Position numbers and translations under genes: made by a program
Notes under the pieces: model-generated
The model's input: only the letters and a program-made list of their open reading frames with translations
Databases searched by the model: none
What the model was told of the DNA's origin: nothing
Shown here: positions 14,835 through 55,770 of the stretch, in pieces
Layout of the letters: each line of letters starts with the position of its first letter
How positions within the stretch are numbered: the first letter of the stretch is position 1
Origin: Haloglomus litoreum
GTDB taxonomy: Archaea > Halobacteriota > Halobacteria > Halobacteriales > Haloarculaceae
DNA: 64,000 bases
Assembly (NCBI RefSeq): GCF_029338515.1
Contig: NZ_CP119988.1
Coordinates: 496,001 to 560,000, forward strand
Reading direction: 5' to 3'

Positions 14835-14910
14835 GGAACACCCGCGGCGCCCGCGCGGGGAGGTGTGGGGACACCCTGCTCGCCTGGAACCACCACGCGC
14901 GAACGCTCGG
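14835..14910 (+). repeat. Conserved 76-bp module upstream of hairpin A
   Basis: Reads GGAACAC, a GC-rich part ending GGGGAGGTGTGGGGACAC, then CTGGAACCACCACG and GAACGCTCGG. The same module in the same order and spacing (about 80 percent identical by eye) is on the minus strand at 42273-42349. It is part of the dispersed repeat family. Confidence 0.7.
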
Positions 14911-14934
14911 CGTGACGGGCCACAGGGCGGGACT

Positions 14935-15045
14935 GAAAGGGGCCGCCCGCTCGACCCGGCCCGGAGGAAGCAAGCACCGCAGGCCGAACGAAGTGAGGCC
15001 GAGGAGCGCAGCGACTCCCGGCCGGTCGAGCGGGCGGGGGCTTTC
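14935..15045 (+). repeat. Hairpin module A of dispersed family
   Basis: Arms 14935-14956 and 15024-15045: outer stem GAAAG/CTTTC, then GGG facing GGG (unpaired), then a perfect 14-bp inner stem. The loop holds the core GCAAGCACCGCAGG (14970-14983) and GAGGAGCGCAGCGA (15001). It lies between the convergent ends of the acyl-CoA dehydrogenase and mmsA genes. Confidence 0.85.
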
Positions 15046-15189
15046 AACAGGGTCTCATCGTCGCTGTCGTCGGTGTATTCGGAGTCGTCGCGGGGAGAGC
15101 GGGCGGGGGCTTTCAACAGGGTCTCATCGTCGCTGTCGTCGGTGTGTTCGGAGTCGTCGCAGGGAGAGCGGGCGGGGGCTTTCGACAGG
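15028..15189 (+). repeat. 69-nt tandem repeat of the module's 3' end
   Basis: The 3' end of module A (GAGCGGGCGGGGGCTTTC plus tail) is repeated at 15028, 15097 and 15166. The two full periods are each exactly 69 nt and the last copy is truncated. The tail is rich in TCGTCGCTGTCGTCGG. An AT-rich stretch (about 15228-15302) follows, possibly the transcription end of mmsA. Confidence 0.85.
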
Positions 15190-23325: not shown

Positions 23326-23393
23326 GTGCTGTTAGCGGTGTCGCGTGTCTGTAGCGAATTGGTCGGGGACGGAGACAACAGCGACAGGCTGTT

Positions 23394-23541
23394 GAAAGCC
23401 CCCGCGTGCTCGACCGTCCGCGGCTCGCTGCGCTCCTCACGGTCCGGGCATGCGGCGGGTTCGCTGGCGCTCACCCGCCGTTCCGGGCGTGCGTTGTGGT
23501 GCTAGCGTCGCCGGGGACGGGTCGAGCCCGCGGCCCCTTTC
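23394..23541 (-). repeat. Hairpin module B1 (minus orientation)
   Basis: The plus strand reads GAAAGCCCCCGCG at 23394 and CGGCCCCTTTC ending at 23541. On the minus strand this is GAAAGGGG...GGGGGCTTTC, the same ends as module A. The core is GACGCTAGCACCACA (23495-23509) and GAGGAGCGCAGCGAG is present. The inner stem includes GCTCGACC pairing with GGTCGAG. The tail beyond the 3' end (towards 23370) reads CAACAGCCTGTCGCTGTTG. Confidence 0.8.
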
Positions 23542-23631
23542 AGTCCCGCCCAATTCGACATTCCAGGGTCGCTCCACACCATTCTAGCTCGATGCGTGCG
23601 CTCCGTGGACCTGACAACATCGGGTGGGAAT

Positions 23632-23748
23632 GGAAGGGGCTGACCGGTCGACCCATCCCGGGCGACGCAAGCACCGCAGCCGAGCGACCGACGGGAGCGA
23701 GGCGAGGAGCGCAGCGAGCCCCGGATGGTCGAGCGGCCAGGGGCTTCC
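23632..23748 (+). repeat. Hairpin module B2 (plus orientation)
   Basis: Arms GGAAGGGGCTG and CAGGGGCTTCC: outer GGAAG/CTTCC pair, GGG faces GGG, then CTG/CAG and an inner GTCGA stem. The core is GCGACGCAAGCACCGCAG, followed by GAGGAGCGCAGCGAG. B1 and B2 point outward, forming an inverted pair about 355 bp long between the DUF5783-type gene and the NifU-domain gene. Confidence 0.8.
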
Positions 23749-23892
23749 AATCCGTTCGTTCCCGTCACAGAGGACCTCGAACCAATCGATACAGCCAGCC
23801 CCTCCCTGTACCGCTCACGAGGCGAACACGTCCCCGACTCCATCCCACGTCCCAACCAAAGGTCTAAGCGCCGTCGCCGCCAACCCCGGACC

Positions 23893-37034: not shown

Positions 37035-37390
37035 TGGCGGACGTGTGTGGGGGTGCGGCTTAACCGCCGGGGGTTCCGGTCGTCGTGACGCCCCGGCCCC
37101 CTGATCTCGCGGCTGCGGGAGGCGTTCGGCCACACCCGGGGCTCCGCGAGCCATCCCGGAATCCCCTTCATCGGCTGTTCCGGGTACGCTCGACCCCACG
37201 AGACGGCCGCTTGCCGTGGGCTGGGTCGGCTGCTGCCAGTGGATTCGATATCGCGATATGTGATTTATCGCACCGGGGCCAACCGACCCGAGAGGGACGC
37301 CGGGAGACGCCGAAACCAGTAGCTCAGGTCGTAGCGGGAGCGGAAACGGTGAAAACGGAGGCGAGTGCCGGGACGTCGAGCGCGAGCGGT
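37035..37390. other. Intergenic stretch between carS and katG
   Basis: There is no convincing reading frame. It contains the 28-nt element (37244-37271) and, near 37190-37235, an imperfect inverted repeat around GGCCGCTTGCC. The element's TATA-like part points rightwards, into the 3' end of katG. Confidence 0.4.
37244..37271 (+). promoter_or_regulatory. 28-nt shared element, second copy
   Basis: Contains ATATCGCGATAT (perfect 12-bp palindrome, 37248-37259), TGTG and a TTTATC TATA-like box. It matches the hemC-upstream copy at 24 of 28 positions in the same relative order. On the plus strand it would transcribe towards, and antisense to, the end of katG. Confidence 0.5.
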
Positions 37391-39658
<2,268 letters not shown>

Positions 39659-40720
39659 TCACTCGACCCGCGCGTCCACCACGACGTGCTGGACGCCCTC
39701 GGCGTAGCTCTTGACCTCGCGCACCGCGAGCACCTCGCAGTCCCGGTCGGCGTCCGCGACCGCCCGCTCCAGCCGCCCGACCGGGCGGTCCGGGAGTTCG
39801 GCCTCGGGTGTGGCCTCGTGCAGGTGGAGGGTCCCGCCCTCGCGCACGGCGGCGACGCCCGCGGACAGCCGCTCGTAGGCGTCGTAGTGGCCCATCACGA
39901 CGCGGTCGACCGGGGCGAGTTCCACGTCCGCACAGTCCGCCCGCACCGCGCGGAAGCGGTCGGTCACGTCGTTGAGGACGGCGTTCTCGACGAGGTACTG
40001 GTACGTGGTCGGGTCGAGTTCGGCGGCGACGACCTCGGCACCTGCCCGGGCCATCGGGAGCGCGAAGTAGCCCACCCCGGCGAACATGTCGAAGACGCGC
40101 TCCTCCGGCCCCGTCACGTCGCCCATCCGCGCGCGCTCGGCCTTGTTGCCCGGCGAGAACATCGTCTTCGCGAGGTCGAGCGCGTACCTCGTGCCGTACT
40201 CGGTGTGGACCGTCTCCGTGTCGCCCGCGCCCGCGACGACGGTCACGTCGGGGTCGCGGGTGCGCCCGGCGATGCCGCCGCGGTCGAGAACGGTGTCGGC
40301 CTCGCCGTGGAGTTCGAGCAGCGCGTCGCCCACCTCGCCCGCCCGGGGGCAGCCGTCGAAATCGGCCAGGAGGACGGTCCCGACGACGGCCCACGACGCG
40401 GGGGCGGCGTCGATCTCGGCCTCCGTGAACCCGCGTGCCCGCAGGCGGTCGGCCAGCGTCGTGTCCCGCGAGGGCAGGTCGTACGCGACGACATCCTCGA
40501 CCGCGGCGACCGCCTCGACGGTCCCCTCGCGGTCGGTCGGGGCCTCGCCGACGACGGGGAGCGCGACCCGCTCGTCGTCGTAGGAGGCGATGCCGCGGCT
40601 GTCGTCGTAGACGCCCAGTGCCGACAGCTCGCGCTCGGCGCGCTCGGCCGCGGGTTTGGGAACGAGCGCCGCGAGCCCGGGTGCTCGGCTGGGGTCGGCC
40701 GCGCCGTCAGTCTCGGTCAT
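39659..40720 (-). CDS. taw2: Taw2-type tRNA wyosine aminocarboxypropyl transferase
   Basis: The product is 353 residues. The Trm5/Taw2 class: an N-terminal RNA-binding part, then LAKTMFSPGNKAERARM, DMFAGVGYFALPMARAG (AdoMet loop) and VVAAELDPTTYQYLVEN. MFSxGN, rather than the Trm5 FNPRLSTER pattern, favours Taw2, which moves an aminocarboxypropyl group from AdoMet onto the wyosine base at G37 of tRNA-Phe. It starts 14 nt inside the end of nmd3, so both are on one transcript. Confidence 0.87.
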   Translation of the reverse strand: MTETDGAADPSRAPGLAALVPKPAAERAERELSALGVYDDSRGIASYDDERVALPVVGEAPTDREGTVEAVAAVEDVVAYDLPSRDTTLADRLRARGFTEAEIDAAPASWAVVGTVLLADFDGCPRAGEVGDALLELHGEADTVLDRGGIAGRTRDPDVTVVAGAGDTETVHTEYGTRYALDLAKTMFSPGNKAERARMGDVTGPEERVFDMFAGVGYFALPMARAGAEVVAAELDPTTYQYLVENAVLNDVTDRFRAVRADCADVELAPVDRVVMGHYDAYERLSAGVAAVREGGTLHLHEATPEAELPDRPVGRLERAVADADRDCEVLAVREVKSYAEGVQHVVVDARVE

Positions 40721-41867
40721 CGGCCTCGTCGTCGTCCGCCGGCAGCACGTGCAGGCCCGCCCGCGAGCGCAGCACGGGCACCTCCTCGGCGTCCGGATCC
40801 ATGTAGTCGGGCCGCGGGATGGTGCGGGCCTCGTACGTCTCGGGGTCGAGCACCTGCACGGCGTGTTCGTCCTCGACGGTGACGACGGTGGTGCGCTGGC
40901 CGTCCTCGCGGGTTCCGAGGCGGCGCGCGTCCGGGTCGATGCCCTCCTCGTAGCTCGCCTCGTACCGCTCGCCCGTCGTCAGCCGGACCCCCTTCAGGTT
41001 CCCGTGCGCGCTCGTGACGAGCACCGGTCCCGCGTCGTCGTCCGGGTCGATGATATCGCCCGGCGTGTAGGGCGGCAGGCGTGCCACGAACGTGACGCGG
41101 TAGAGTTCGTTCCCGTCGGAGTCCTCGGTCGCGAGCGTCTCCGCGGCGCTCACCTCGCCGCCGAACTCGCGGACGATGCGGTGGGCGATGGCCTCGCCCA
41201 TCTGGTTCGCGCTTATCTTCATGTTCACGCCGCTGTCCGTGCGGTCGACGGAGGTGATGAACGCGTTCCGGTCGCCCTTCTGCTCGCGCTCGGCGATGTA
41301 GGCCTCGGCGATCTCGGTCGCCCGGTCGCACTCCGCGTCCGTGGGCGTGCGTTCGGTCGCGCGGACCTGGACGAGCGCCTCCCAGTAGTCGCCCGCGATG
41401 CGCCCGCAGCGGTCGCACGTTCCCCGGGAGATGTAGACCGGCACGGTGGCCTCCTCCTCGACGGGGGTGCCACGGATGACGCCGGTGAACATCGTGTGCA
41501 TCCGGATGGTGTTCTCGTCGACCTGTTCGGGGTCGACGACCCACTCGACGGCCTGGGCGTCGATGTGGACGCCCAGCGCGCCCGTCACCTCCTCGATGGC
41601 GATGTCGGTGTAGTCGCGCGCCCCGACGTCGACCCAGCGGTTGCCGCGGTGGACCGCCCCGCAGTCAGAGCAGACCTGCACCTCCACGCGGTCGGGGGCG
41701 TCCACGAGGTCGAAGTCCTCGAAGTAGCAGGCGTCACAGAGGACGGCGTCCCGACTGCTGGGACTCCCGGGCAGGTCCACGCCGGGCGGCCGCTCGATGG
41801 GGTCGCCACAGCGCGGGCAGAACCCCCGCTCGCCCCGGTCGTCTCGTTGCTCGTCCGATTCGCTCAT
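40707..41867 (-). CDS. nmd3: NMD3-family ribosome-associated protein
   Basis: The product is 386 residues. The N-terminus has four CxxC knuckles (CPRC, CDAC, CSDC, CDRC) typical of NMD3 zinc ribbons, followed by the eIF5A-like and OB-like parts with DRTDSGVNMKISANQMGEAIA. Eukaryotic NMD3 exports the 60S subunit; the archaeal protein is thought to act in large-subunit maturation. An acidic C-terminal tail is haloarchaeal. The start at 41867 is supported by a TTTAAA box about 28 nt before it. Operon with taw2. Confidence 0.95.
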   Translation of the reverse strand: MSESDEQRDDRGERGFCPRCGDPIERPPGVDLPGSPSSRDAVLCDACYFEDFDLVDAPDRVEVQVCSDCGAVHRGNRWVDVGARDYTDIAIEEVTGALGVHIDAQAVEWVVDPEQVDENTIRMHTMFTGVIRGTPVEEEATVPVYISRGTCDRCGRIAGDYWEALVQVRATERTPTDAECDRATEIAEAYIAEREQKGDRNAFITSVDRTDSGVNMKISANQMGEAIAHRIVREFGGEVSAAETLATEDSDGNELYRVTFVARLPPYTPGDIIDPDDDAGPVLVTSAHGNLKGVRLTTGERYEASYEEGIDPDARRLGTREDGQRTTVVTVEDEHAVQVLDPETYEARTIPRPDYMDPDAEEVPVLRSRAGLHVLPADDDEADDRD

Positions 41868-41892
41868 TACCACGAGGTGGGTCGCTCTGCCG

Positions 41893-41898
41893 TTTAAA
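41893..41898 (-). promoter_or_regulatory. TATA box of nmd3-taw2 operon
   Basis: TTTAAA is centred about 28 nt before the nmd3 ATG on the minus strand. Confidence 0.6.
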
Positions 41899-41954
41899 GT
41901 CCGCGTCCGGACGTTGGGTGTTGGGTGGGCGTGTTCCGCGGTCGAGACTCGGCT

Positions 41955-42060
41955 GTAGGATAACTCACTAAAATAATATCTCATATGGTTTGGGCATTAT
42001 AATCTGATTAAGTCTCGGATAATTATTCTATATTGAATTTTATTATTTTATTGTGGGGTA
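41955..42060. other. AT-rich patch beside hairpin cluster C
   Basis: About 105 bp with runs such as AATAATATCTCAT and TTTTATTATTTTATTG in an otherwise GC-rich genome. Similar AT-rich stretches border clusters A (about 15228-15302) and D (55690-55790). There is no gene in it; it could be a terminator or promoter zone or a preferred insertion target. Confidence 0.5.
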
Positions 42061-42130
42061 TTAGCAGCGAAGTCTCGGAACTCCTCGCGCTCTCTCACTA
42101 CGACAGCAACAACCACAGGGGAACCACTTA

Positions 42131-42246
42131 CGAAGCCCTCGCGCTCTCGACCACTCCGGGCCTCGCTGCGCTCCTCACTCGCTCCCTGCGGTCGCTCGTT
42201 GCGGTGCTTGCGTCGGCCGGGAGGGATCGAGAGCGCTCGCCCTTCG
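42131..42246 (-). repeat. Hairpin module C1 (minus orientation)
   Basis: Ends CGAAGCCCTCGCGC (42131) and GAGCGCTCGCCCTTCG (to 42246). On the minus strand this is CGAAG, a 5-nt mismatch block with GGG facing GGG, then a 10-bp inner stem GCGCTCTCGA. The core GACGCAAGCACCGCA is at 42201-42216 (complement), with GAGGAGCGCAGCGAG. A degenerate copy of the 3' end occurs further left near 42075-42100. Confidence 0.85.
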
Positions 42247-42272
42247 AGTCCGCCAGGAGACGCTTGACCAGC

Positions 42273-42349
42273 CGAGCGTTCTGCCGTGGTGGTTCCAGTG
42301 GGTTGCGTAGTGTCCCCACACCTCCCCGCGCTCGCGCCGGGCGTGTTCC
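42273..42349 (-). repeat. Conserved module between C1 and C2, shared with cluster A
   Basis: The complement reads GGAACAC ... GGGGAGGTGTGGGGACAC ... CTGGAACCACCACG ... GAACGCTCGG, the same order and spacing as 14835-14910. It is followed, as in A, by a hairpin module in the same orientation (C1). Confidence 0.75.
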
Positions 42350-42376
42350 GGCACGCTCCCTCCGGTCGCGGTCGTC

Positions 42377-42430
42377 CGAAAATCGGAGATTTTCGTGATC
42401 ACGAGAGAGCTTCGCTCTCTCGAACGACCT
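42377..42430. repeat. Double-hairpin module shared with cluster D
   Basis: Two perfect hairpins: CGAAAATC-GGA-GATTTTCG (42377-42395) and CGAGAGAGC-TTC-GCTCTCTCG (42402-42422), joined by TGATCA. Cluster D has the same 54-bp block at 55463-55516, with the second stem intact and its loop changed to TCC. Confidence 0.85.
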
Positions 42431-42587
42431 CCACGGGGATGGCGCGAGCGCGCTTCCTGATTTCCGGAACCGGCCGGCCGAGCAACCGCTCTCCGGCCGG
42501 GAGCGCGTGCCGAGCGCAAGCGAGGCCGCGCGACTCGGGGAAGGGCAGGGGAACCGCGCCGTGACACATCTGATTTCCTGGCGGACT

Positions 42588-42732
42588 CGAAGGGCGAGCG
42601 CGCTCAGCGGTTCCCGGACGACGCAAGCACCGCAGGGCATGCCCGGAACGGCGGCGACCGAAGGGAGCCGCCGCAGTCCCGGAACCCGAGGAGCGCAGCG
42701 AGTCCCGGAACCCTGAGCGCGCGAGGGCTTCG
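42588..42732 (+). repeat. Hairpin module C2 (plus orientation)
   Basis: Arms CGAAGGGCGAGCGCGCTCAG and the complement of it ending GAGGGCTTCG: CGAAG/CTTCG, GGCGA facing GAGGG, a 10-bp GCGCGCTCAG stem, then GGTTCC/GGAACC. The core ACGACGCAAGCACCGCAG is at about 42617-42634. The inner stem differs from C1 yet still pairs. The tail GTAGGTCGTTCTGTTGTCGG follows. Confidence 0.85.
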
Positions 42733-42851
42733 TAGGTCGTTCTGTTGTCGGAGTCGCTGTCATCGTGAAGAGGAGAGCATAGTGGCCGATTCCGTCGCTG
42801 TCGCAGCCGTTCCGGCCGCTGAGATTGTCCCTCCATCCCCGACCCGCACGG

Positions 42852-42858
42852 CTTATCC
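42852..42858 (+). promoter_or_regulatory. TATA-like box of engB
   Basis: CTTATCC is centred 27 nt before the ATG at 42882. Confidence 0.5.
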
Positions 42859-42881
42859 CCACCAACCAACTCCACTCGTAC

Positions 42882-43502
42882 ATGTTCGAGACACGCCCGG
42901 ACCGCGACGCCGAGGTGGCCCTCCTCGGGCGGTCGAACGTGGGCAAGTCGACGTTGATGCGGGAGATCACGGGCCACAAGTTCGACACCGGCGGGAAGCC
43001 GGGCGTCACGCGCGAGCCGAACCACTACGACTGGGCCCCGGAGGACTTCGTCGTCACCGACCTGCCCGGGTTCGGGTTCATGGCCGGCGTCGACGAGGGG
43101 CGCCGCGAGGCCATCAAGACCGACATCGTCCGGTACGTCGAGCAGTACGCCGAGCAGATCCTCGTCGGTGTGGTCGTCCTCGACGGGAAGGCCGCGGTCG
43201 ACATCATCGACCGCCACTCCGGCCCGGACGAGATCCCGCACACGGTCGAGCTGTTCTCGTTCCTGCAGGAGGTCGGCATCCCGGCGGTGCTGGCGGTCAA
43301 CAAGATGGACAAGGTCGATGACCGCGACGAGCGCCTCGACGCCATCGCCGACCGGTTCGGCCTCTACCCGCCGTGGCAGCAGTGGGAGGAGGAGGTCATC
43401 GCGCCCATCTCCGCGAAGCGGGGGAACATCGAGCCGCTGAACCAGGCCGTCCGCCACCACCTCCACGAGGCCAAACGCGACGACCTGTTCAAGTTCTTCT
43501 GA
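42882..43502 (+). CDS. engB: EngB-family GTPase
   Basis: A 206-residue small GTPase. G1 [10 protein letters not shown]2 threonine in KPGVTREP, G3 DLPGFGFM, G4 NKMD, G5 SAKRG near residue 180. EngB/YihA proteins assist large-ribosomal-subunit assembly in bacteria; archaeal members are assumed similar. The C-terminal [15 protein letters not shown] is typical. A TATA box at -27 fixes a leaderless start, ruling out the longer frame from 42825. Confidence 0.95.
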
Positions 43503-43555
43503 GACGGCGTGCGTCCCCGACCCCGGCCCGGCCGCGGTCGGGGCGGGGCGAGGGC

Positions 43556-44458
43556 TCAGCGGAGGCCCGTGCGCGGGGCCGCGATGCGACGGGCGGCGGC
43601 GTTCCGGGCCTCGCGGCTGTCGTTGACCGCCCGGTCGAACCAGGCCGGCCGCGTGACCTCGGGCGCGTCGCTCCGGTAGATGATGCGCCGGGTGACGCGG
43701 ACCCGTTCACCCTCCGGGAGCCGGCCGCTGTACGAGAGGTGCAGCGACCGGACGATGCCGCGCTCGGAGACGATGGCCTCGAGGGAGACGTTCGTCGCCC
43801 GACGGAGCCCGCTGGTCGCACCGAACGTCGCCGGGTCGCGCAGCGTCTCGCCGACGACACGGTACCGGGTCGGGGCCCCGTCGACCCGGCCGACGGTCCG
43901 GGTCTCCACGGACGAGAACAGCGCGTAGTGGTTGAGCCAGGGCCGGGGGCGCCGGAGCGAGGTGTAGAACCCGGCGGCATCCGCGTACGCGACCCCGTCG
44001 GCGTAGCGGTAGCTGACCCGGCCATCCCGCTCGACCCGGGTGGCGAGCGCCGTCCGGTTCGACCAGAAGACGGCGGTCGTCTCCGCGCCCGAGGTGATGA
44101 ACCCCGGACGGCCGACGGCCGCCACGCGGGCGACGAAGGCGTCCGGCGTCACCGTGGCCGACTGGTCGGCCCGGGCGAAGACCGTGCCGTTGGGGTACCG
44201 GACGGTCCAGTTCGAGGTGAAGCGGTACCGGGCACCCAGGGCCTCGCCGTGGGCGTTCGCGAGCGCGAGCGGGTCCGTCACGCCGTCGGTCGTGAGCCCG
44301 GGGGCCAGCTCCTCCGGCGCCTCCGTGGGCTCGGGAACCGGCGCCGGGGTCAGGGTGGGCGTCGGGCCGCCGGGGTCGTCGGGACCGCCACCGGGGACCG
44401 CGCTGCAGCCCGCGAGGACGAGCAGGCCACAGAGCGCGACGGTCCCGAGCCGGTGCAT
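43556..44458 (-). CDS. Haloarchaeal lipoprotein (DUF7537 type)
   Basis: The product is 300 residues. Signal peptide MHRLGTVALCGLLVLAGC with lipobox LAGC (no twin Arg, so probably Sec-type). It is followed by a Pro/Thr/Gly-rich linker (residues 20-50) and a large strand-rich domain with repeated TSNWTVRYPNGT and YRYADGVAY features. This matches a family of haloarchaeal surface lipoproteins I know as DUF7537, resembling LolA/LppX-like folds. Role unknown. ATG 44458 gives a proper signal peptide. Confidence 0.8.
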   Translation of the reverse strand: MHRLGTVALCGLLVLAGCSAVPGGGPDDPGGPTPTLTPAPVPEPTEAPEELAPGLTTDGVTDPLALANAHGEALGARYRFTSNWTVRYPNGTVFARADQSATVTPDAFVARVAAVGRPGFITSGAETTAVFWSNRTALATRVERDGRVSYRYADGVAYADAAGFYTSLRRPRPWLNHYALFSSVETRTVGRVDGAPTRYRVVGETLRDPATFGATSGLRRATNVSLEAIVSERGIVRSLHLSYSGRLPEGERVRVTRRIIYRSDAPEVTRPAWFDRAVNDSREARNAAARRIAAPRTGLR

Positions 44459-44567
44459 ACCCGGTATCCGGATGCACGCGGCATACCGGTTCCGCCGCGG
44501 GTGCGACTCCGACCCACCCGACGATGGGAGGGGAACAGGCAAGTGGGGGTAGCAAGAATTGCCGGCC

Positions 44568-45563
44568 ATGCAGACGCTCCTCCTGAACCCCGCGGACGTG
44601 CGCGAGAACGCCCAGATGCCGGAGGTCATCCGTGCCGTCGAGGAGGCGTTCGGCGCGTACCAGCGCGGCGACACGCAGATGCCCGCCAAGTCCTACATCG
44701 ACCTGCCGGAGTACAACGGCGACTTCCGGTCGATGCCGGCGTACATGCAGGCCGAGGACTGGGACGCGGCCGGCATCAAGTGGGTCAACGTCCACACGGA
44801 CAACGTCGAGCAGTACGACCTGCCGACCGTCCTGGGGACGATGATCTACTCCGACCCGCGCAACGCCTTCCCGCTCGCGATCATGGACGGCACGACGCTC
44901 ACCCGCCTCCGGACGGGCGCCGCCGCCGCCGTCGCCACCGACCACCTCGCCATCCCCGAGGCGCGCTCGCTGGGCATCGTCGGCGCGGGCGTCCAGTCCT
45001 ACACGCAACTGGAGGGCATCGCCTGCGTCCGCGACATCGAGGAGGTCGTCGTCGCGGACGTGCGCGAGGCGGCCGTCGCCGCGTTCGTCGAGCGCTACGA
45101 GGACGAGTTCGACGTGCGTGGCGGGAGTATCGAGGAGGCCGCGGAGTGCGACGTGCTCTCGACCGTGACGCCGGTCGAGGAGCCCATCGTCCCGCGCTCG
45201 GCGCTCGGCGAGCACACCCACATCAACGCGATGGGCGCCGACGCGCCCGACAAGCACGAGCACGACGACCAGACGCTGCTGGACGCGAAGGTCGTCATCG
45301 ACGACTACGAGCAGTGCACTCACTCCGGCGAGATCAACGTCCCCTGGGCCGCCGGGATACTGGACGACGACGACCTGTACGGCGAACTCGGGGAGATCGT
45401 CACTGGCGAGAAACCCGGCCGCGAACCCGGCGACGGCATCACCCTGTTCGACTCGACCGGACTCGCGATCCAGGACGTGGCGACCGCCCACGTCGTCTAC
45501 GAGCACGCCGACGACAACGACAACGGCTACCCCTTCGAACTGGTGGACACGCGGGTTCGGTGA
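44568..45563 (+). CDS. Ornithine cyclodeaminase / alanine dehydrogenase-family protein
   Basis: A 331-residue NAD-dependent mu-crystallin-family enzyme. Substrate-side residues in WDAAGIKWVNVHTDN, Arg in TLTRLRTGAAAAVATDHLA, and the Rossmann loop LGIVGAGVQSYTQL. The late HINAMGADAPDKHE matches the conserved GAD segment. It could be ornithine cyclodeaminase (to proline) or an archaeal alanine dehydrogenase as in Archaeoglobus; sequence alone does not decide. A TTG three codons earlier is an alternative start. Confidence 0.88.
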   Translation: MQTLLLNPADVRENAQMPEVIRAVEEAFGAYQRGDTQMPAKSYIDLPEYNGDFRSMPAYMQAEDWDAAGIKWVNVHTDNVEQYDLPTVLGTMIYSDPRNAFPLAIMDGTTLTRLRTGAAAAVATDHLAIPEARSLGIVGAGVQSYTQLEGIACVRDIEEVVVADVREAAVAAFVERYEDEFDVRGGSIEEAAECDVLSTVTPVEEPIVPRSALGEHTHINAMGADAPDKHEHDDQTLLDAKVVIDDYEQCTHSGEINVPWAAGILDDDDLYGELGEIVTGEKPGREPGDGITLFDSTGLAIQDVATAHVVYEHADDNDNGYPFELVDTRVR

Positions 45564-45603
45564 AGAAATCGGCGGATATATCTCGCAGTTCAGGAATTAC
45601 TGT

Positions 45604-45638
45604 AAAATATAGTTGATAAGCTTAAAACATAGCTGATA
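45604..45638. repeat. AT-rich 15-nt direct repeats
   Basis: AAAATATAGTTGATA and AAAACATAGCTGATA (13 of 15 identical) are spaced by five bases within an AT-rich patch between two converging genes. This could be a terminator region or a protein-binding site. Confidence 0.5.
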
Positions 45639-45648
45639 CGCTGCTAAT

Positions 45649-45915
45649 TCAGCGACCCTGCGCCCGGCGTCGCGCCTGCCGCTGGCGCACGTCGTCGCCG
45701 GGGCGGACCGGCTCGCTGCCGCCGACGGTCCGGCGGACGATTACGTAGGCCCGCCAGAGGAGCCAGCCGACCGCCACGAACGGGAGCAGCGGCAGGGCGA
45801 GGATGGCCATGATGGCGACCATCAGCAGGCCGAATCCGTGCATCTCGACGTTCAGGTGGCGGCCGAGGGTCTCGGAGACGGTGCGGGGCGGTTCCGGGAG
45901 CTGTTCTGGGCTCAT
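45649..45915 (-). CDS. Small membrane protein
   Basis: The product is 88 residues. A soluble N-terminus (MSPEQLPEPPRTVSETLGRHL), one long or two short hydrophobic helices (about 27-62, GFGLLMVAIMAILALPLLPF onward), then a basic, Arg-rich tail. No family recognised. ATG 45915 is preferred over a GTG two codons upstream. Unknown function. Confidence 0.65.
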   Translation of the reverse strand: MSPEQLPEPPRTVSETLGRHLNVEMHGFGLLMVAIMAILALPLLPFVAVGWLLWRAYVIVRRTVGGSEPVRPGDDVRQRQARRRAQGR

Positions 45916-45992
45916 ACCCACTGTACGCGCGCTGAGGATATCAATACAGCAGTGGAGGGTCTCTGGCGGCCGTGAGGGGGCCGCTCAGCCGA

Positions 45993-48842
45993 TCACTCGA
46001 TGTGGATGGCCGGGCGGAACGGCACCGCGTCGCCGGCCTTCCCGCCGGGGTCCTCGGGGTCGGCGCCCTCGTCGAGCACCTGCACGTCGGCGTCGAACTC
46101 GCGCTCGTAGAAGCCGACGGCGTCGGCGTACACCTCGGCCTCGTCGGCGTCCTCCAGAATCGAGAGGCGGCCTTCGTCCTGCTCGCGGACGAACTCCACC
46201 AGTTCCTGCACCAGCTGGTTGACCTCGTTGCCGCGCTCGCGCAGGTCCGGGTCCGACATCACTTCGGACATCACCGCGCCCACGTCGGGACCGGTCTCGA
46301 CGACCTGCTCGAACACCGAGCGCTTCCACTCCGCGGCGGTGTAGACCCGAACCACGTCGGGGTCGGTGCCGGTCACATCCACGATGTCGTTGATGTCGTC
46401 GGTGAGCGACTCGACCAGCGACTCCCGCACCTCGACGGTCGGGTCCTCGCGGGCCTCGTCCACCTCGGGCCAGCCCGCGTCCTCGGCGGACTCGCCGGTC
46501 AGCTCCTCGTGCAGTTCGTTCGCCAGGAACGGCGTGAACGGCGCCAGCAGGCGCAGGCGCTGGCCCAGGACGTGCCGGAGCGTCCAGCGTGCGCCCTCGC
46601 GGTCCTGGTCCGCGCGGCGGCGGTACCAGCGCAGGTGCTCCTCCATCGCGTAGAACGCGGCCTGCGAGGCCGTCCGGGTCTCGAAGCCCTCCAGCGCCGC
46701 CGTCGCCTCGCGAATCACGCCCTGCAGTTTCGAGAGCAGCCACTCGTCGATGGGGCGCAGGTCGGGCTGCTCCTCGGGCGCATCCTGCTCGATCACCTCC
46801 GTCGCGCGGTTGTAGAACCGGCGCAGCTGCCCGTGTGCCGAGGAGACGGCCTCGTCGCGCCAGTCGTAGTCCTGCCACGGCTCCGCGGAGTTCAGCAGGA
46901 AGAACCGGACGGTGTCGGCCCCGTACTCGTCGATGGCCTCGCCCGGCAGGACGACGTGGCCCTTCGAGGAGGACATCTTCTGGCCCTCCAGCAGGCCCAT
47001 CCCCATGATGGTGATGCCCTCCGGCCAGTTGCGCTCGTCGAACAGTTCGGCGTGGTGATACAGGTAGAACGTCAGGTGGTTCGAGATGAGGTCGTTCGCG
47101 GAGACGCGGTAGTCGACGGGGTACCAGTGGTCCCACTCCTCGCGCAGGTCCAGCGCCCGCTCGTCCGGCTCGTCGACGGCGTCGGCGCCGTAGAACAGCG
47201 TGTCGAAGAACTGCTGGTCCATCGCCTCGGGTGGGATGTCCTCCAGCCGGTGGGCGATGGTGTAGTAGGCCATGTAGATGGTCGAGTCGCTCAGCGGCTC
47301 GATGACGAAGTCCTCGTCCCACGGCAGGCGCGTGCCCAGCCCGTAGTTGCGGATGCAGGGCCACTCGTTCAGCCAGTCGACGGTGTGGGTGTACTGCTCG
47401 CGCGTGTTCTCCGGGATGGCGTCCAGGTCCTCGACGAGGCGCTTGGTCTTCTGCTTCCAGTCCGCGTCGTTGTAGCGCAGGAACCACGTCTCCTGTTTGG
47501 CCACCTCGACGGCGCCGCCACAGCGGCAGACGACCTCCTCGGTGAACTCCTGCATCGAGCCGAACGCGCCACGACCCTTGTAGTCCTCGCGGAAGCGCTC
47601 GCGCACGTCCTCGACGGTCTCGCCGGCGTACTCGCCGTAGGCGTCGATGAGCTTCCCCTGGTGGAACTCGCGGTTGTACAGCTCCTGGGTCGCCTCCTCC
47701 AGCGCGGGGTCGTTCTGGCTAGCCACGTCGTACTCCTCGACGGCGTCGCGGGCCGGAACCTCGCCGTACCCCTCGATGGTGAGGATGGGGACCGGCTCGA
47801 TGGCCCGTACTTCGTCGGGGTCGATGCCGTACTGCGTCATCTCGTCGGCGCGCTCCTTGGCCTCCCGCAGGGCGACGTAGTCGTCCGGCGAGTGCGCCGG
47901 GACCGACATCACCACCCCGGTCGCGTTGTCCGTGTCGACGAACGACGCGGGCAGGATGAGCACCTCGTCCTCCGTGATGGGGTTGGTGACGCGCTCGCCG
48001 ACCAGTTCGGCACCCGACAGCTCCTCGACGACCTCGACGTCGTGGTCCTGCAGACGCAGTTTCTCGGTCGCCTCCCGCGAGACGACCCACGTCTCGCCGT
48101 CGACCTCGGCGCGGACGTAGTCGCCCTCGGGGTCGACGAACGCGTTCGTCACGCCGCGCACCGTCTCCGGGCGCAGGGTCGCCATCGGCAGGACGGTGCC
48201 CTCCGAGTCACGGAACCGGACCAGCGTGTACTCCTGGAACTCGGCCTCCTCGCCCTCCAGCAGGTCGTGCGTGGTGACGGGGTTGTTCTCGTTCGTGCAG
48301 AACTTGACCGGGTGGAGGCCCTTCTCCAGCAGACCGCGCTCCTTCAGGGTGCGGTACTGCCAGGTGATGAACCTCGAGTAGCGCTCGTCGTTGGTGGTGA
48401 ACTCCCGGCGCCAGTCGACCGAGAGCCCCAGCTGCCGCATCCCCTTCTTGTAGTGCTCCTCGATGAAGTAGCGCGCGAACCCCATCGGCGTCTCCAGGTC
48501 CTGCAGGGTGTCCTCCGGGACGTTGTACGTGTCACGCAGGACCGAGAGCTGCTCCTCCTCGCCCTTCTTCAGGCGCTCGACGGCGCCGATGATGGGTGTG
48601 CCCGTGACGTGCCACGCGATGGGGAACAGGACGTTGTCGCCCTGCAGCCGCCGGTAGCGGGCGTACACGTCCGGGACCGTGTACGTGCGGGCGTGCCCGA
48701 CGTGCATCCCGCCCGAGGGGTACGGGTACGGGACGGTGATGAACGTCGCGTCCCCGTCGTCCTCGGGGTCGGCCTCGTAGTAGCCCTGCTGGCGCCAGCG
48801 ATCGCGCCACCGGGCCTCGATACTGGCGGGGTCGTAGCTCAT
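45993..48842 (-). CDS. leuS: Leucyl-tRNA synthetase
   Basis: A 949-residue class I synthetase. HIGH motif as HVGH (residues 47-50) in PYPYPSGGMHVGH; KMSKS as KMSSS in LEGQKMSSSKGH. The CP1 editing domain lies between, with TLRPETVRGVTNAFV. The C-terminal anticodon-binding and extension parts are present, and the length is normal for archaeal LeuRS. It charges tRNA-Leu. Monocistronic by position. Confidence 0.98.
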   Translation of the reverse strand: MSYDPASIEARWRDRWRQQGYYEADPEDDGDATFITVPYPYPSGGMHVGHARTYTVPDVYARYRRLQGDNVLFPIAWHVTGTPIIGAVERLKKGEEEQLSVLRDTYNVPEDTLQDLETPMGFARYFIEEHYKKGMRQLGLSVDWRREFTTNDERYSRFITWQYRTLKERGLLEKGLHPVKFCTNENNPVTTHDLLEGEEAEFQEYTLVRFRDSEGTVLPMATLRPETVRGVTNAFVDPEGDYVRAEVDGETWVVSREATEKLRLQDHDVEVVEELSGAELVGERVTNPITEDEVLILPASFVDTDNATGVVMSVPAHSPDDYVALREAKERADEMTQYGIDPDEVRAIEPVPILTIEGYGEVPARDAVEEYDVASQNDPALEEATQELYNREFHQGKLIDAYGEYAGETVEDVRERFREDYKGRGAFGSMQEFTEEVVCRCGGAVEVAKQETWFLRYNDADWKQKTKRLVEDLDAIPENTREQYTHTVDWLNEWPCIRNYGLGTRLPWDEDFVIEPLSDSTIYMAYYTIAHRLEDIPPEAMDQQFFDTLFYGADAVDEPDERALDLREEWDHWYPVDYRVSANDLISNHLTFYLYHHAELFDERNWPEGITIMGMGLLEGQKMSSSKGHVVLPGEAIDEYGADTVRFFLLNSAEPWQDYDWRDEAVSSAHGQLRRFYNRATEVIEQDAPEEQPDLRPIDEWLLSKLQGVIREATAALEGFETRTASQAAFYAMEEHLRWYRRRADQDREGARWTLRHVLGQRLRLLAPFTPFLANELHEELTGESAEDAGWPEVDEAREDPTVEVRESLVESLTDDINDIVDVTGTDPDVVRVYTAAEWKRSVFEQVVETGPDVGAVMSEVMSDPDLRERGNEVNQLVQELVEFVREQDEGRLSILEDADEAEVYADAVGFYEREFDADVQVLDEGADPEDPGGKAGDAVPFRPAIHIE

Positions 48843-49075
48843 ACCTCCACTGCGTGGGGCGGGGCCTAAATACTCGTCTCATCGTCGGGAACGCGTGACA
48901 GGGGGCGCGGGCGGAGCCGGCGGCGGGTGGGCCCGGCCGGGTCCGACGGACGTGGTCCTGCGGTCGCCACTGCAGTCGTGGCGGTCGGGCACCGTGGCTG
49001 GAGTCGCGCCGTAACTGCCCCGGAGCCGAGCTACGCTCGGACGACCGGCGCTCCGAATCCAGCCTCCGACCCGCC

Positions 49076-49513
49076 TCAGAGCGACCGCGCGTCCTCCAGC
49101 ACCTCCTGGGCGTGCCCGGCGGGGTCCGCGAGTTCGGGGTCGTAGCTGGCGACGACCGCGCCGTCGTTCAGGAGGAAGGTGACGCGGTCGGTGTACCCCT
49201 CGCTGGTGTCGATGCCGAACGCGGCCGCCACCTCGCCCTCGGGGTCGGCCAGCAGTTCGAAGGTGACGCCCTCCTCCTCGGCGAAGTCGGCGTGGCTCTC
49301 CACGTCGTCCATCGAGACGCCGTAGACGGAGACGCCGGCGTCCTCGAACGCGGGGAGGTGCTCCTCGAAGTCGTTGGCCTCGATGGTGCAGCCGCCGGTG
49401 AAGTCCTTGGGGTAGAAGTAGACCACCGCCGGGTCGGAGAAGTCGAGGGTGACGGTGTCGCCGTGCTGGTTGGGTGCGCTGACCTCGGGTGCCGGGTCGC
49501 CGGATTCGAGCAT
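49076..49513 (-). CDS. PrxQ/BCP-type peroxiredoxin 1
   Basis: The product is 145 residues. Thioredoxin fold with the peroxidatic Cys in FYPKDFTGGCTIEANDF. The PrxQ resolving Cys usually five residues later is absent (ANDF), so it is probably a 1-Cys type needing an external thiol. It reduces hydrogen or organic peroxides. A paralog lies 60 nt upstream (49574-50020), about half identical. The two probably arose by tandem duplication. Confidence 0.92.
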   Translation of the reverse strand: MLESGDPAPEVSAPNQHGDTVTLDFSDPAVVYFYPKDFTGGCTIEANDFEEHLPAFEDAGVSVYGVSMDDVESHADFAEEEGVTFELLADPEGEVAAAFGIDTSEGYTDRVTFLLNDGAVVASYDPELADPAGHAQEVLEDARSL

Positions 49514-49573
49514 GGCCCCCGCTTCGGTCGGGGGTTGTATAGTTGTGCATCCCTCGGTCGTCGCCGTGCGCCC

Positions 49574-50020
49574 CTACAGCGACACCACGCCGTCGTCTAT
49601 CAGGTCGAGCAGCAGGTCCCGGGCGTGGCCGTCCGGGTTCACGCCCTCGTAGACGCGCTCGACCTCGCCGTCGACGACGACGAACGTGGTCCGCTTCGCG
49701 CGGCCCGTGATGCGCGGGACGCCGAACGCCTCGCACACGTCCTCGTCGGGGTCGGCCAGCAGGTCGAACTCGATGCCCTCGGCCTCGGCGAAGTCCGCGT
49801 GGCTCTCCACATCGTCGGTCGAGACGCCGTAGACGGTGACCCCAGCGTCGGCGTAGCTCTCGGCCTCGGTCGTGAACTGCTGGGCCTCGACCGTGCAGCC
49901 GGGCGTCTCGTCCTCGGGGTAGAAGTAGACGACCGTCACGCCCGCCCACTCGGGGCTGACGGTCTCGCCGTGCTGGTTGGGCGCACTCACGTCCGGTGCC
50001 GGGTCACCCGGTTCGAGCAT
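49574..50020 (-). CDS. PrxQ/BCP-type peroxiredoxin 2
   Basis: The product is 148 residues. FYPEDETPGCTVEAQQF contains the peroxidatic Cys; the +5 resolving Cys is missing, but another Cys occurs in DEDVCEAFG. Starts at MLEPGDPAPD, the same N-terminus as its paralog; an upstream in-frame ATG at 50047 is possible. Probably in one transcription unit with the downstream paralog. Confidence 0.92.
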   Translation of the reverse strand: MLEPGDPAPDVSAPNQHGETVSPEWAGVTVVYFYPEDETPGCTVEAQQFTTEAESYADAGVTVYGVSTDDVESHADFAEAEGIEFDLLADPDEDVCEAFGVPRITGRAKRTTFVVVDGEVERVYEGVNPDGHARDLLLDLIDDGVVSL

Positions 50021-50289
50021 GGGCGGTGGTTCCCCCGGCATCGTCATACGACTGCCGGTCCCGCCCGGGATGGGCGAACGCGTGCCCGGTTCCTCGGCCG
50101 GATTCCGTGGGTCGTCCAATCCGCCAGCCCGAACCGACCGGGAACCGGACGGCCGTCCAGCAACCTCCGTCTGTAATTTTCTATAATTTTCATAAGTTGC
50201 GTTTTTCGGCGCCATACAAGAACTTCTAGAGCATATTAACACCATTATGCCCAAGATTTATGCGTATCAATCGATGTTCGTCAAGTGTA

Positions 50290-50421
50290 ATGTCCGCGTC
50301 ACTGCCCCCATCGGGCCCATCTGCGAGTTACGCGCCGTGCTACGAGTGCAACGAGGGTACGCTGGTCTGGGACCACGAGGCCCGGGAGAGCCGCTGCTCG
50401 ATCTGCAAGGAGGGGATCTGA
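50290..50421 (+). CDS. 43-residue zinc-ribbon protein
   Basis: A short leaderless gene. After a Ser/Pro-rich start, CYECNEGTLVWDHEARESRC and then CSIC form a single compact zinc site. A GATTTATGC TATA-like box lies about 27 nt upstream. The 120 bp before it are AT-rich. It resembles the very small CPxCG-type zinc proteins frequent in haloarchaea, some of which affect swarming or biofilm in Haloferax, but no specific role can be given. Confidence 0.7.
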   Translation: MSASLPPSGPSASYAPCYECNEGTLVWDHEARESRCSICKEGI

Positions 50422-50885
50422 CCGTGGTCGGCCCACATCCCATCGAACTCCACACCGTTCCTGCAGGGACGGGCGTCCGTCAGTGGCGCCCGTCCACCCG
50501 CCGGCGCTCCCACCGCGCCGGCACCGAAGTCCATGCCCGGCGCTCCCGCGCCGATTCCTGCTGTCCACCGCCGGCGGCGTTCTCCGCCGGCACGCCATCG
50601 CACCGCAGAGCGCCGCCGCGACCGACCCCCGTGTGGACTGTGTCCGGTTCGGGAAGGTGGAGGGCCGGCCCGAGACGGGTGACGAGTACGCGTTCGCCGT
50701 CGGCGGTTCCACCGTCCGTATCGCGGTCGAGGAGGTCCGCTACGAGGACGGGCGGCCGTGGGCATGGTGGGCCGCCGTCCGGTCGCGGGTGGGGCCGGTA
50801 GCGGCTCCCTCCCCTCGCGACTCGCGGCGGCATCGACGGGAGCGCTGCCCCGCTCGGCGTTCCGACCTCCCCGCAGGACCTCACC
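50422..50885 (+). other. GC-rich stretch with doubtful reading frame
   Basis: A plus-strand frame here has a protein-like middle (PRRFLLSTAGGVL, then VEGRPETGDEYAFAVGGSTV and EVRYEDGRPWAWW), including a Tat-like RRFLL. Its ends look like out-of-frame GC-rich sequence and it runs into the convergent aminopeptidase gene. It could be a decayed or frameshifted lipoprotein gene. Confidence 0.3.
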
Positions 50886-51974
50886 TTAGAATCCGTCCTC
50901 GAAGACGAACGCGCCGTCCTTCTGGACGACCTCACCGTCGAACTCGATGCGGGAGTCCTCGCTCATGTCGACGATCATGTCCTCGTGGACGGTCGACTCG
51001 TTGCGCTCGTTGCCCTCGCCGACGGTCTCCTCGTATCCCCGGCCGATGGCCATGTGGACGGTATCGCCCATCTTCTCGTCGAACAGCATGTTGCCGGTGA
51101 ACCGGTCGATGTCGCGGTTCATCCCGATGCCCAGCTCGCCCAGCCGGCGCGCGCCCTCGTCGGTCTCCAGCAGGCTTGTCAGCAGGTCCTCGTTCTTCGA
51201 GGCCGCGTGCTCGACCACCTTGCCGTCCTCGAAGACGAGCCGGACGTCGAGGATCTCTCGCCCCTGGATGATGACCGGCTTGTCGAACAGCACCTCGCCC
51301 TCGACGCTGTCCGGGATGGGGGCGGTGAACACCTCGCCGCCGGGCATGTTGTTGTCGTCGGCGTCGTTCTCGGCATGGTTGCCGGCGACGGACATCGTCA
51401 CGTCGGTGGTGTCGCCGGAGACGATGCGGACCTCCTCGGCCGGGTCCAGTAGCTCGACCAGCTGTGCCTGGTGCTCGCGGACGGCGTCCCAGTCCTTGTT
51501 GATGGCGTTCCAGACGAAGTCCTCGTAGGCCGGGGTGGACATCTCGGCCTTCTGGGCGTACCCCGTAGAGGGCCACTGGGTGAGCACCCACTCCGAGTCC
51601 AGCAGCGCCTCCTGGACCGCCTGGTTGGCTCGCTTGCTCGTCGCGTTCTTCTCGGGTGGGATGTCGCCCGTCTCGCTGAGGTTCTCGCCGCCGCGAATCT
51701 GGACGACGGCGTCGGCCGCCTCGTACTTCGCGCGCGCCATCTCGTTCTCCATGGCGAGCGTCTCCTCGGCGGCGGCGAGCTTGTAGGCGCGCTGGCTCCG
51801 CTGGCTCCCGAGGGAGGTGCTGACGACACCGCCGTGCTCGCCGACGAGTTCGGCGACCGCGGTCACGAGCGGTTCGGCCGCCGGCGGAGCCACGATGGCC
51901 ACCTGGTCGCCGGCCTCGATGCCGGTGCAGTCGTCGACGAGTACCGCGGCGTGGTCACGGATGCGGGGATCCAT
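50886..51974 (-). CDS. M29-family aminopeptidase, copy 1
   Basis: The product is 362 residues. M29 (AmpS/aminopeptidase T) features: MDPRIRDHAAVLVDDCTGIE start, SGDTTDVTMSVAGN, PGGEVFTAPIPDSVEG (metal-ligand Glu), GELGIGMNRDIDRFTGN, and HMAIGRGYEETVGEGN with VHEDMIVDM. It removes N-terminal residues from peptides using two metal ions. A paralog of identical length lies 266 bp upstream; the C-terminal halves are much more alike than the N-terminal halves. Confidence 0.92.
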   Translation of the reverse strand: MDPRIRDHAAVLVDDCTGIEAGDQVAIVAPPAAEPLVTAVAELVGEHGGVVSTSLGSQRSQRAYKLAAAEETLAMENEMARAKYEAADAVVQIRGGENLSETGDIPPEKNATSKRANQAVQEALLDSEWVLTQWPSTGYAQKAEMSTPAYEDFVWNAINKDWDAVREHQAQLVELLDPAEEVRIVSGDTTDVTMSVAGNHAENDADDNNMPGGEVFTAPIPDSVEGEVLFDKPVIIQGREILDVRLVFEDGKVVEHAASKNEDLLTSLLETDEGARRLGELGIGMNRDIDRFTGNMLFDEKMGDTVHMAIGRGYEETVGEGNERNESTVHEDMIVDMSEDSRIEFDGEVVQKDGAFVFEDGF

Positions 51975-52240
51975 GCACGGGTGGTCGGAGCCATGCGCGA
52001 AAAAATTGCCCGAAGCGTCCGGGCGGGCGCCAGGGTTCGGCCGGTCCCCGCCCCCGGCCTCCTGGCGACATCACCCGGGCAGGCGGGTCGCCGCTACGCC
52101 TCGACCCCGGCCTCGCGGCTCACTTCGTTCGCCGCTCGCAGTGCCGGGGCTCGTTCCCGTCGCTCACTGCGCCCCTTCACTGCTCGCGGGTCGCTTCGCT
52201 CCCCGCTCGCCATGTGGTTCCTCGCTGCGCTCGGAACCAC
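51975..52240. other. Hairpin-rich intergenic stretch
   Basis: Contains GTGGTTCC-TCGCTGCGCTC-GGAACCAC, an 8-bp perfect stem near 52212-52238, and runs like CTCACTTCGTTCGCCGCTCGC. These resemble the purine-rich loops of the dispersed hairpin family but lack its core GCAAGCACC. No reading frame. It may be a diverged relative or a simple terminator structure. Confidence 0.45.
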
Positions 52241-53329
52241 TCACTCCTCGAACACGAACGTCCCGTCCCGCTGGACGACCTCGCCGTCGACCTCGATTCG
52301 CGAGTCCTCGCTCATATCGACGATCATGTCGACGTGCTGGGCGGACTGGTTCTGCTCGTTGCCCTCGCCGACGTTGGCCTCGTAGGCCCGGCCGACGGCC
52401 ATGTGGACGGTGTCACCCATCTTCTCGTCGAACAGCATGTTGTAGGTGAACCGGTCGATGTCGCGGTTCATCCCGATGCCCAGCTCGCCCAGCCGGCGCG
52501 CGCCGGGGTCCGTATCGAGGATGCTCCCGAGGAACGACTCGTTCTTCTCGGCGCTGTAGTCGACGACCTCGCCACCCTCGAAGACCAGGCGGGCGCCGGT
52601 GACCTCCTTGCCGCGCCGGTAGACCGGCTTGTCGAACAACACCTCGCCCTCGACGCTGTCCGGGATGGGGGCGGTGAACACCTCGCCGCCGGGGATGTTG
52701 TTGGAGTTGGTGTCGTTGATGGTGTGGTTGCCCGCGACGGACATCGTCACGTCGGTCGTCTCGCCGGAGACGATGCGGACCTCGTCGGCGTCGTCGAGGA
52801 TCTCGACCATCTGCTCCTGGAACGCGCGCTGCTCGTCCCAGTCCTTGAGGATGGCGTCGTAGACGAAGTTCTGGTAGGCCTCGAAGCTCATCTCGGCGAG
52901 CTGGGCGTCCGCCGGGGCGGGGTGCTGGGTGAGCGTCCAGCGGTCGCCGAGCCGCTCGTTGAGGATGGGGCTGTGGGCCTTCTCGTAGTCGGCGTTCGTC
53001 TCGTCGTCCACGTCGACCATCTCGGTCACGTTCTCGTGCGAGCGGATGATGACGTGGCAGTCGGCCTCGTCGATGAGTGCCTGCTGGTGAGCGGGCGTCT
53101 CGAACTCCGTGCCGCGCTCCTCGGCGGCCCGGAGGTAGTTGCGGATGGCGCGGCCGCTCCGGTTCGTCGTGATATGAAACGGGTTCGCGCCGCGGTCGCC
53201 GGCCACCTCGTACAGCGCGACGACGAGGTCCTCTGCGACGGGTTCGGACTTGATGACGAGGTCGTCCCCCTCGTCGAGGTCGATGGCGTCGGCGAGGGTC
53301 TGCGCGTGCTCTCGGATACGGGGGTCCAT
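52241..53329 (-). CDS. M29-family aminopeptidase, copy 2
   Basis: The product is 362 residues. It has the same motif set as copy 1: SGETTDVTMSVAGN, PGGEVFTAPIPDSVEG, GELGIGMNRDIDRFTYN, HMAVGRAYEANVGEGN. Runs of about 50-60 nt are identical to copy 1 in the C-terminal half, while the first 170 residues are clearly diverged, suggesting different peptide preference or gene conversion. The start at MDPRIREHAQTL aligns with copy 1; an ATG nine codons upstream is less likely. Confidence 0.92.
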   Translation of the reverse strand: MDPRIREHAQTLADAIDLDEGDDLVIKSEPVAEDLVVALYEVAGDRGANPFHITTNRSGRAIRNYLRAAEERGTEFETPAHQQALIDEADCHVIIRSHENVTEMVDVDDETNADYEKAHSPILNERLGDRWTLTQHPAPADAQLAEMSFEAYQNFVYDAILKDWDEQRAFQEQMVEILDDADEVRIVSGETTDVTMSVAGNHTINDTNSNNIPGGEVFTAPIPDSVEGEVLFDKPVYRRGKEVTGARLVFEGGEVVDYSAEKNESFLGSILDTDPGARRLGELGIGMNRDIDRFTYNMLFDEKMGDTVHMAVGRAYEANVGEGNEQNQSAQHVDMIVDMSEDSRIEVDGEVVQRDGTFVFEE

Positions 53330-53449
53330 GCGCCCGGATTCGACGGGGCCCGCCATACCGTTTCCGCAACGCTGCGTCGCACGTCGCCGGGAGTCAGCAG
53401 GAACCGACGAGACTCACCGCGGCCCACGCGGCCCCCCGGGAGCCGGCGG

Positions 53450-54187: not shown

Positions 54188-54271
54188 GGCGGCCGTCCGC
54201 TCGCGGGCGGCAAAACCGTTCCCACGCGGATACCCGACGCGACTTTGCCACTCGACCCGAAACGGTGGCCC

Positions 54272-55309: not shown

Positions 55310-55322
55310 GGCAGGTCGGATT

Positions 55323-55446: not shown

Positions 55447-55678
55447 CGACTCGGGGGTGGTTCGAAAACCGGAGATTTTCGTCATCACGAGAGAGCTCCG
55501 CTCTCTCGAACGACCTCGCTCCGCTCCTCGGGTTCGCTTCGCTCACCCTGCGGTGCTTGCGTCGTCCACCTTCGTCGAGCGCGCTCCACCCGTCCCCGAC
55601 GACGCAAGCACCACAGCGACCGCAGGGAGCGAGGAGCGCAGCGAGGCGCGGACGGTGGAGCGCGCGAGGGCTTCGTAG
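55427..55678. repeat. Inverted-pair hairpin element D (D1 minus + D2 plus)
   Basis: Bounded by CTACGAAGCCCTCGCGCTC (55427) and its complement ending at 55678 (GCGCGCGAGGGCTTCGTAG), with one mismatch. It contains both cores in opposite directions: GGTGCTTGCGTCGTC (about 55552-55566) and GACGACGCAAGCACC (55598-55612). D2 keeps a strong inner stem (GAGCGCGCTCCACC with its complement). The 5' arms of D1 and D2 appear merged. The double-hairpin module lies at 55463-55516. AT-rich DNA follows to 55790. Confidence 0.85.
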
Positions 55679-55770
55679 GTCTCTCTGTCGCCTGTTGTGG
55701 AATAATCATCTAAAGCTGAAAAATAGCGTGTAAAGTCGCCCACCTGGGATTTATAACTCGAATAATCAAA

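Follow-up and report, generated by a model that had tools for sequence, protein, structure and literature searches.

A paired, covarying hairpin module in Haloglomus and other Halobacteria, possibly a REPIN-like non-autonomous repeat

What kind of element is a long hairpin that recurs, apparently non-coding, at several intergenic sites within a single stretch of a haloarchaeal chromosome? The window considered here is a stretch of 64,000 nucleotides (G000:C1:496001-560000) from the 4,695,480-base chromosome of a member of the genus Haloglomus. A sequence-only reading of it had described seven copies of a core dispersed over four clusters (A to D), each copy enclosed by long complementary arms and none with a coding frame. 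Matches to the core with up to three mismatches number 9 in the window against 1.39 expected, none of 100 dinucleotide shuffles reaching 9, and the downstream motif is present 32 times against 9.06 expected from dinucleotide shuffles. A covariance model built from 22 copies of the same genome finds exactly seven modules, a repeat search recovered the long complementary arms around each of them, and the open reading frames that cross the clusters gave no Pfam match. The clusters are real and the family is indeed dispersed, but the unit proves to be a divergent pair of modules. Cluster A has a single module, one end of which is repeated in tandem, and the sites in the window represent only four of the 74 loci in the genome. 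The features of the window, with strand and basis, are as follows.

14850..14918, plus strand: remnant of the conserved centre (GGGGAGGTGTGGGGACAC...GGAACCACCACGCGCGAACGCTCG); sequence compared with aligned centres
14919..15049, plus strand: module A, a singlet of the GGGCGGGACT/GAAAG...CTTTC type; cmsearch 130.2 bits, E 6e-27
15021..15189, plus strand: three tandem 69-bp copies of the module A 3' arm with pyrimidine-rich tail; repeat search
23347..23788, no strand: whole unit B; near-identical copy at genome 938 kb
23390..23557, minus strand: module B left; cmsearch 96.6 bits
23616..23752, plus strand: module B right; cmsearch 116.7 bits
42127..42262, minus strand: module C left; cmsearch 121.8 bits, complementary arms I1-I4
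42263..42571, no strand: centre of unit C, conserved and asymmetric; alignment with the centres of other units (27 in all)
42572..42736, plus strand: module C right; cmsearch 113.9 bits
55431..55586 (about), minus strand: module D left, broken by a nested hairpin element; cmsearch 52.9 bits (the model match itself spans 55487-55606) and sequence
55458..55513, no strand: nested small two-hairpin element (TGGTTCGA...TCGAACGA); sequence
55565..55679, plus strand: module D right; cmsearch 86.5 bits

Nested two-hairpin elements of about 56-62 nt are found also at window positions 42372-42427, and the insert of module D left recurs in modules L002, L003 and L026. Tandem arrays of a module end and its tail, repeated two to three times, also occur at genome positions 897530, 897914 and 3624459.

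The module is an imperfect hairpin of 115-168 nt in which an invariant core, GACGCAAGCACCGCAG...CGAGGAGCGCAGCGAG, lies within a variable but compensating stem. Reading outward, a 5' flank (GGGYGGGACT or CTGGYGGACT) is followed by an outer stem of 5 bp and an internal loop rich in G. A long, variable stem then leads to GACGCAAGCACCGCAG, after which come a variable hairpin that may be absent, CGAGGAGCGCAGCGAG, the complementary strands and finally a pyrimidine-rich tail. The outer stem exists as GAAAG/CTTTC, CGAAG/CTTCG or GGAAG/CTTCC, with CAAAG/CTTTG in Halorubrum, and the core contains a clean compensatory switch in which AAGCACC pairs with GGAGCG and AAGGACC with GGACCG. Among 106 copies from the Haloglomus genome there are 605 two-sided changes with 95% of cells paired, and the covariation score of 0.479, compared to 0.142 for shuffled alignments, was equalled in none of 500 shuffles; a repetition with 99 modules from other haloarchaea yielded 0.508 compared to 0.130. 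Stem covariation is thus very strong and the structured nature of the module is fully supported; the single-strand fold of module A has a z of -4.88. Pairs of the G-U type outnumber A-C pairs: the counts are 66 and 31 over the whole set of own copies, 25 and 4 over the best 60 of these, and 32 and 5 over plasmid copies, although these copies are related by ancestry rather than independent and p-values drawn from the counts are optimistic. Since an excess of G-U over A-C is strand-specific, it points to selection on one strand of the module, either as RNA or as single-stranded DNA.

The four G-tracts of the flank and of both loop strands vary in step between two subtypes of module. The GGGYGGG flank goes with four and at least four loop G in the 94 modules with both loops read, one exception having three, and the TGGYGGA flank goes with three and three in 44 of 44 scorable modules, only modules showing both patterns being scorable. 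It is possible that the linked lengths reflect a potassium-stabilised quadruplex at the base of the hairpin, in molar potassium, but they could also have come down from two old lineages. As the inclusion of G-quadruplex terms in ViennaRNA left the fold of the module unchanged, it is the linked tract lengths that carry the quadruplex idea.

Within the Haloglomus genome the core with no more than one mismatch occurs 62 times, compared to once for a reversed control, and at least 117 modules at 74 loci were counted, a lower bound from a covariance search in which 150 candidates were scored. Of 42 adjacent pairs of modules 39 are divergent (head-to-head), two are ++, none is -- and one is +-. The unit is therefore two copies of one hairpin module, facing apart, around a non-coding spacer. 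In this genome spacer lengths cluster near 59, 255, 290-310 and 350-460 nt, and in other genera they are 13-16 nt; the longer spacers carry a conserved asymmetric centre, and the ends of units are often tandemly repeated. The gene context of the units, tallied from gene calls based on a simple composition score, is unbiased (42 tandem, 14 divergent and 14 convergent), and this random context rules out a terminator or a marker of convergent genes.

A class-wide search of 194 sampled genomes of Halobacteria gave at least one match in 168 of them; the family is class-wide and recurrence of the core in other genomes is not a matter of chance. Copy number ranges from 0 to more than 100 between related genomes, with some relatives having none and some more than 57, and many genomes hold a single module. 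Outside the haloarchaea, the full model matched none of 27 loci carrying a chance 16-mer. None of 17 viral contigs with the 16-mer fits the full model and no phage record matches unit C, observations which rule out a viral origin. A known RNA family is ruled out by Rfam, which yielded only a tRNA in the window and nothing for unit C at E up to 1. The tRNA (8701-8812, minus strand, 112 nt, probably intron-containing) was found by Rfam and missed by ARAGORN. No description of the module was found in the open-licence papers searched, and the earlier statement that no named family was known holds for Rfam and for this literature. The paired hairpin family is previously unlisted; a structured repeat present in most Halobacteria, with more than 100 copies in some genomes and absent from Rfam, would be one of the largest archaeal families of covarying non-coding sequence so far known.

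Comparison of orthologous intergenic regions, which had been proposed as a check, shows that sites gain and lose modules between congeners. At site B congener G001 keeps one module and G002 none, the congeners differ also at window 18.4 kb, and a stretch of about 470 bp at 1,385 kb in G001 corresponds to one of about 30-35 bp in G002. Unit B and a copy 419 kb away (at 938 kb) are identical over about 440 bp save for one indel (99.6% over 447 bp); weak similarity continues outside the identical part, so that an older copy may have undergone gene conversion. Orthologous modules are either near-identical, sometimes whilst nearby genes are about 91% identical, or differ by swapped tips with compensatory changes. 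Units also share about 17 mosaic identity blocks, and the combination of tip swaps and partial identity between units indicates that recombination between copies is frequent. Clusters C and D flank a 12.6-kb block (42.8-55.4 kb, within window 37,388-57,000) that both congeners carry at a distance of about 0.55-0.7 Mb from the sequences now adjoining it, so that the arrangement in the window is derived and at least one rearrangement has its breakpoints marked by units.

Random gene context, gain and loss of sites, a near-identical distant copy, mosaic exchange and breakpoints together make the non-autonomous transposable element the best supported of the candidates that had been listed. The other side of the account is that no target duplication is visible at two sites, where the intergenic sequences have diverged too far to define an empty site exactly, that no exact empty site was found, and that neither an autonomous copy nor, in the loci read, a transposase between or beside modules was seen. 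Pairs in (+,-) orientation 3.5-3.9 kb apart enclose ordinary genes; the presence of hef, hisS, UspA and NUDIX genes there rules out an autonomous transposon between convergent modules. Near-identical orthologous copies are, moreover, more conserved than would be expected of dead inserts. Our preferred, if still tentative, explanation is that the module belongs to a REPIN-like, non-autonomous repetitive (mobile) element of Halobacteria. As to its mode of movement and its recogniser, we infer that a protein reading the invariant loops would recognise the module as a folded single strand, either of RNA or of DNA, in the latter case at a fork or in the course of transfer; that the pair may be copied or mobilised in trans by a separate factor; and that recombination and template switching between copies would swap hairpin tips and shuffle neighbouring DNA. 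The majority of copies is probably selfish or neutral.

The situation on plasmids may well be different. When the context of 30 single-module genomes was examined, 11 proved to have a homologous gene on the 5' side of the module, reading away from it, with a product of about 300 aa carrying a C-terminal OB fold like that of replication factor A. This RPA/SSB-like protein is present in 188 plasmid records and a similar locus in 170, including pNRC100 and Haloferax mediterranei pHME132. Among 18 megaplasmids that all have the gene (14 sampled across the similarity range and four chosen by best match), the module stands 430-640 bp upstream of it in one fixed orientation in about 12, whilst 5 have the gene without a clear module. 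In alignment the plasmid module borders a conserved non-coding stretch whose terminal tail resembles that of chromosomal units; homology between plasmid and chromosomal centres was otherwise rejected, since the plasmid profile matches just two loci of the Haloglomus genome (3.161 and 4.254 Mb). Genes for a HerA-type ATPase and a primase-like protein lie nearby and several locus-bearing plasmids are typed MPF_T; the plasmids are typed non-mobilizable, with no oriT or relaxase annotated. Both subtypes of module are found at the plasmid spot, which suggests that the module as such is wanted there, and the strand under selection is the one that serves as template for the RPA/SSB-like gene. The plasmid copy looks as if it is kept for a putative function, and it offers a concrete sequence for testing megaplasmid gene expression or the start of replication after transfer. 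On many haloarchaeal megaplasmids the RPA/SSB-like gene is preceded by a highly conserved, non-coding leader with several hairpins (L254:1505-2200; L292:14203-15740; L293:11240-12900; L295:11083-12639), of which the conserved centre, GACCGACCATTCC, is kept even where the module is missing. The Haloglomus chromosome has an island (G000:C1:3,134,505-3,183,959; 61% GC, measured at 3.138-3.157 Mb) that contains the only TnpA of the genome and most of its tnpB genes, together with a second orc1/cdc6 and a plasmid-type SSB-leader remnant; it is probably an integrated plasmid.

An important consideration is whether any other explanation would account for these observations better. The module could be a structured non-coding RNA or transcript element whose loops bind a conserved protein and whose copies multiply by duplication and recombination, and the compensating stems with invariant loops, the strand-specific tolerance of G-U and the compensatory changes between orthologous copies all speak in its favour. 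The structural half of this earlier candidate stands, whether the strand acts as RNA or as single-stranded DNA, but Rfam has no match even at E up to 1, position relative to genes is not fixed, no promoter was recognised by eye in the GC-rich centres, paired modules are on opposite strands and some genomes have no module at all, so that it must be thought somewhat unlikely. A single-stranded DNA signal of haloarchaeal conjugative plasmids, either a promoter or primer site of the Frpo/ssi type or part of an oriT, with chromosomal copies derived from it or sharing its machinery, would fit the recurrent locus, its fixed upstream orientation on plasmids of which several are MPF_T, the HerA-type ATPase and primase genes, the template-strand selection, the two subtypes at one spot and the placement of bacterial Frpo upstream of ssb genes (PMC11541004). 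We consider it unlikely: most chromosomal centres show no homology to that of the plasmids, 5 of the 18 plasmids have no clear module, TATA/BRE elements were not identified, more than 100 chromosomal copies are left unexplained and the locus may be one captured insertion. The more far-reaching proposal that this is the first archaeal ssDNA conjugation signal (promoter, primer site or oriT part) on megaplasmids, and that its chromosomal copies, in their hundreds, form a mobile family exploiting the same recognition factor, is rather unlikely.

The remaining explanations turn on position and on mutational process. Own units become sparser away from the main orc1/cdc6, which lies at 4.69 Mb (KS p 3e-6), and are absent from 0.93 Mb roughly opposite to it (G000:C1:1,680,967-2,607,653). 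The only part of this gap tested, a 19-kb segment at 2.10 Mb, shows a normal GC content and is both conserved and collinear in two congeners. Such unevenness is what the earlier suggestion of a chromosome-organising or nucleoid-binding site has to offer, but the suggestion is weakened to the point of being improbable by a copy number that falls from over 100 to 0 between related genomes, by the many single-copy genomes and by the turnover of sites. The arms might also stay complementary through template switching during replication, with no selection acting on structure; the correction of palindromes is known as a mutational process, and tip swaps and mosaics are present. Mismatched internal loops, however, would be erased by it, yet they are invariant between genera and between families of Halobacteria, which disfavours template switching and makes it very improbable. 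Least probable of all is that the modules are degenerate ends of IS605-type transposons, as in PATEs, non-coding elements of haloarchaea that are built on a palindrome and attract small repeats nested within them (PMC3119063), since modules are several times larger, are arranged as inverted pairs and are rare where tnpB genes cluster. The genome has one TnpA and 10 TnpB, mostly where modules are scarce; there are few modules in the tnpB cluster at 3.02-3.18 Mb, and only one of the 10 tnpB genes lies within about 1.2 kb of a module. IS605/TnpB ends are rejected on these positions, and with modules not marking IS605 genes they have not turned out to be fragments of a known IS or MITE.

The preferred explanation, a REPIN-like mobile repeat, invites comparison with several known systems. 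REPINs are inverted doublets in extragenic DNA that show compensatory changes and occur also as remnant singlets and in tandem clusters (PMC3116915). The module shares with REPINs and BIMEs the extragenic inverted doublets of a conserved palindrome (39 divergent pairs to 3 others), the compensatory changes, the remnant singlets, the tandem clusters and the lack of a transposase of its own. It differs in its size of 115-168 nt, compared to 20-40 for REP, in its conserved internal loops and nested hairpins, in showing no tag of the GTAG type (the REP tag being GTAG or CGTC), and in being archaeal and class-wide with no adjacent RAYT (Y1 transposase); the one PF01797 match in the genome, at 3,183.6 kb, has a tnpB 1 kb away and the closest module at 22 kb. 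Because of the RAYT and of the REP size it has not been filed as a REPIN, and it is likewise not assigned to MITE, PATE or Rfam RNA. With the MITEs, PATEs and SMRs of Haloquadratum it has in common that non-coding haloarchaeal repeats contain smaller ones nested in larger palindromic ones, the two-hairpin inserts resembling SMR-A inside PATEs, but in the loci read it has no terminal inverted repeat common to a known or autonomous transposon, at two sites no target duplication is visible, and it has no link to IS605 genes. In bacteria, Frpo promoters lie upstream of ssb genes (PMC11541004). Plasmid copies of the module, and these only, are similarly long, imperfect, strand-specific hairpins upstream of a leading-region type of gene, ssb, on conjugation-type plasmids, whereas the module is archaeal, has no identified promoter boxes and is mostly chromosomal, paired and far from any ssb; the resemblance is one of position and form, and a promoter role is putative. 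The sso of rolling-circle plasmids and the attC of integrons are folded single strands with variable stems and invariant unpaired positions, and variable stems with invariant unpaired positions are likewise found in the module.
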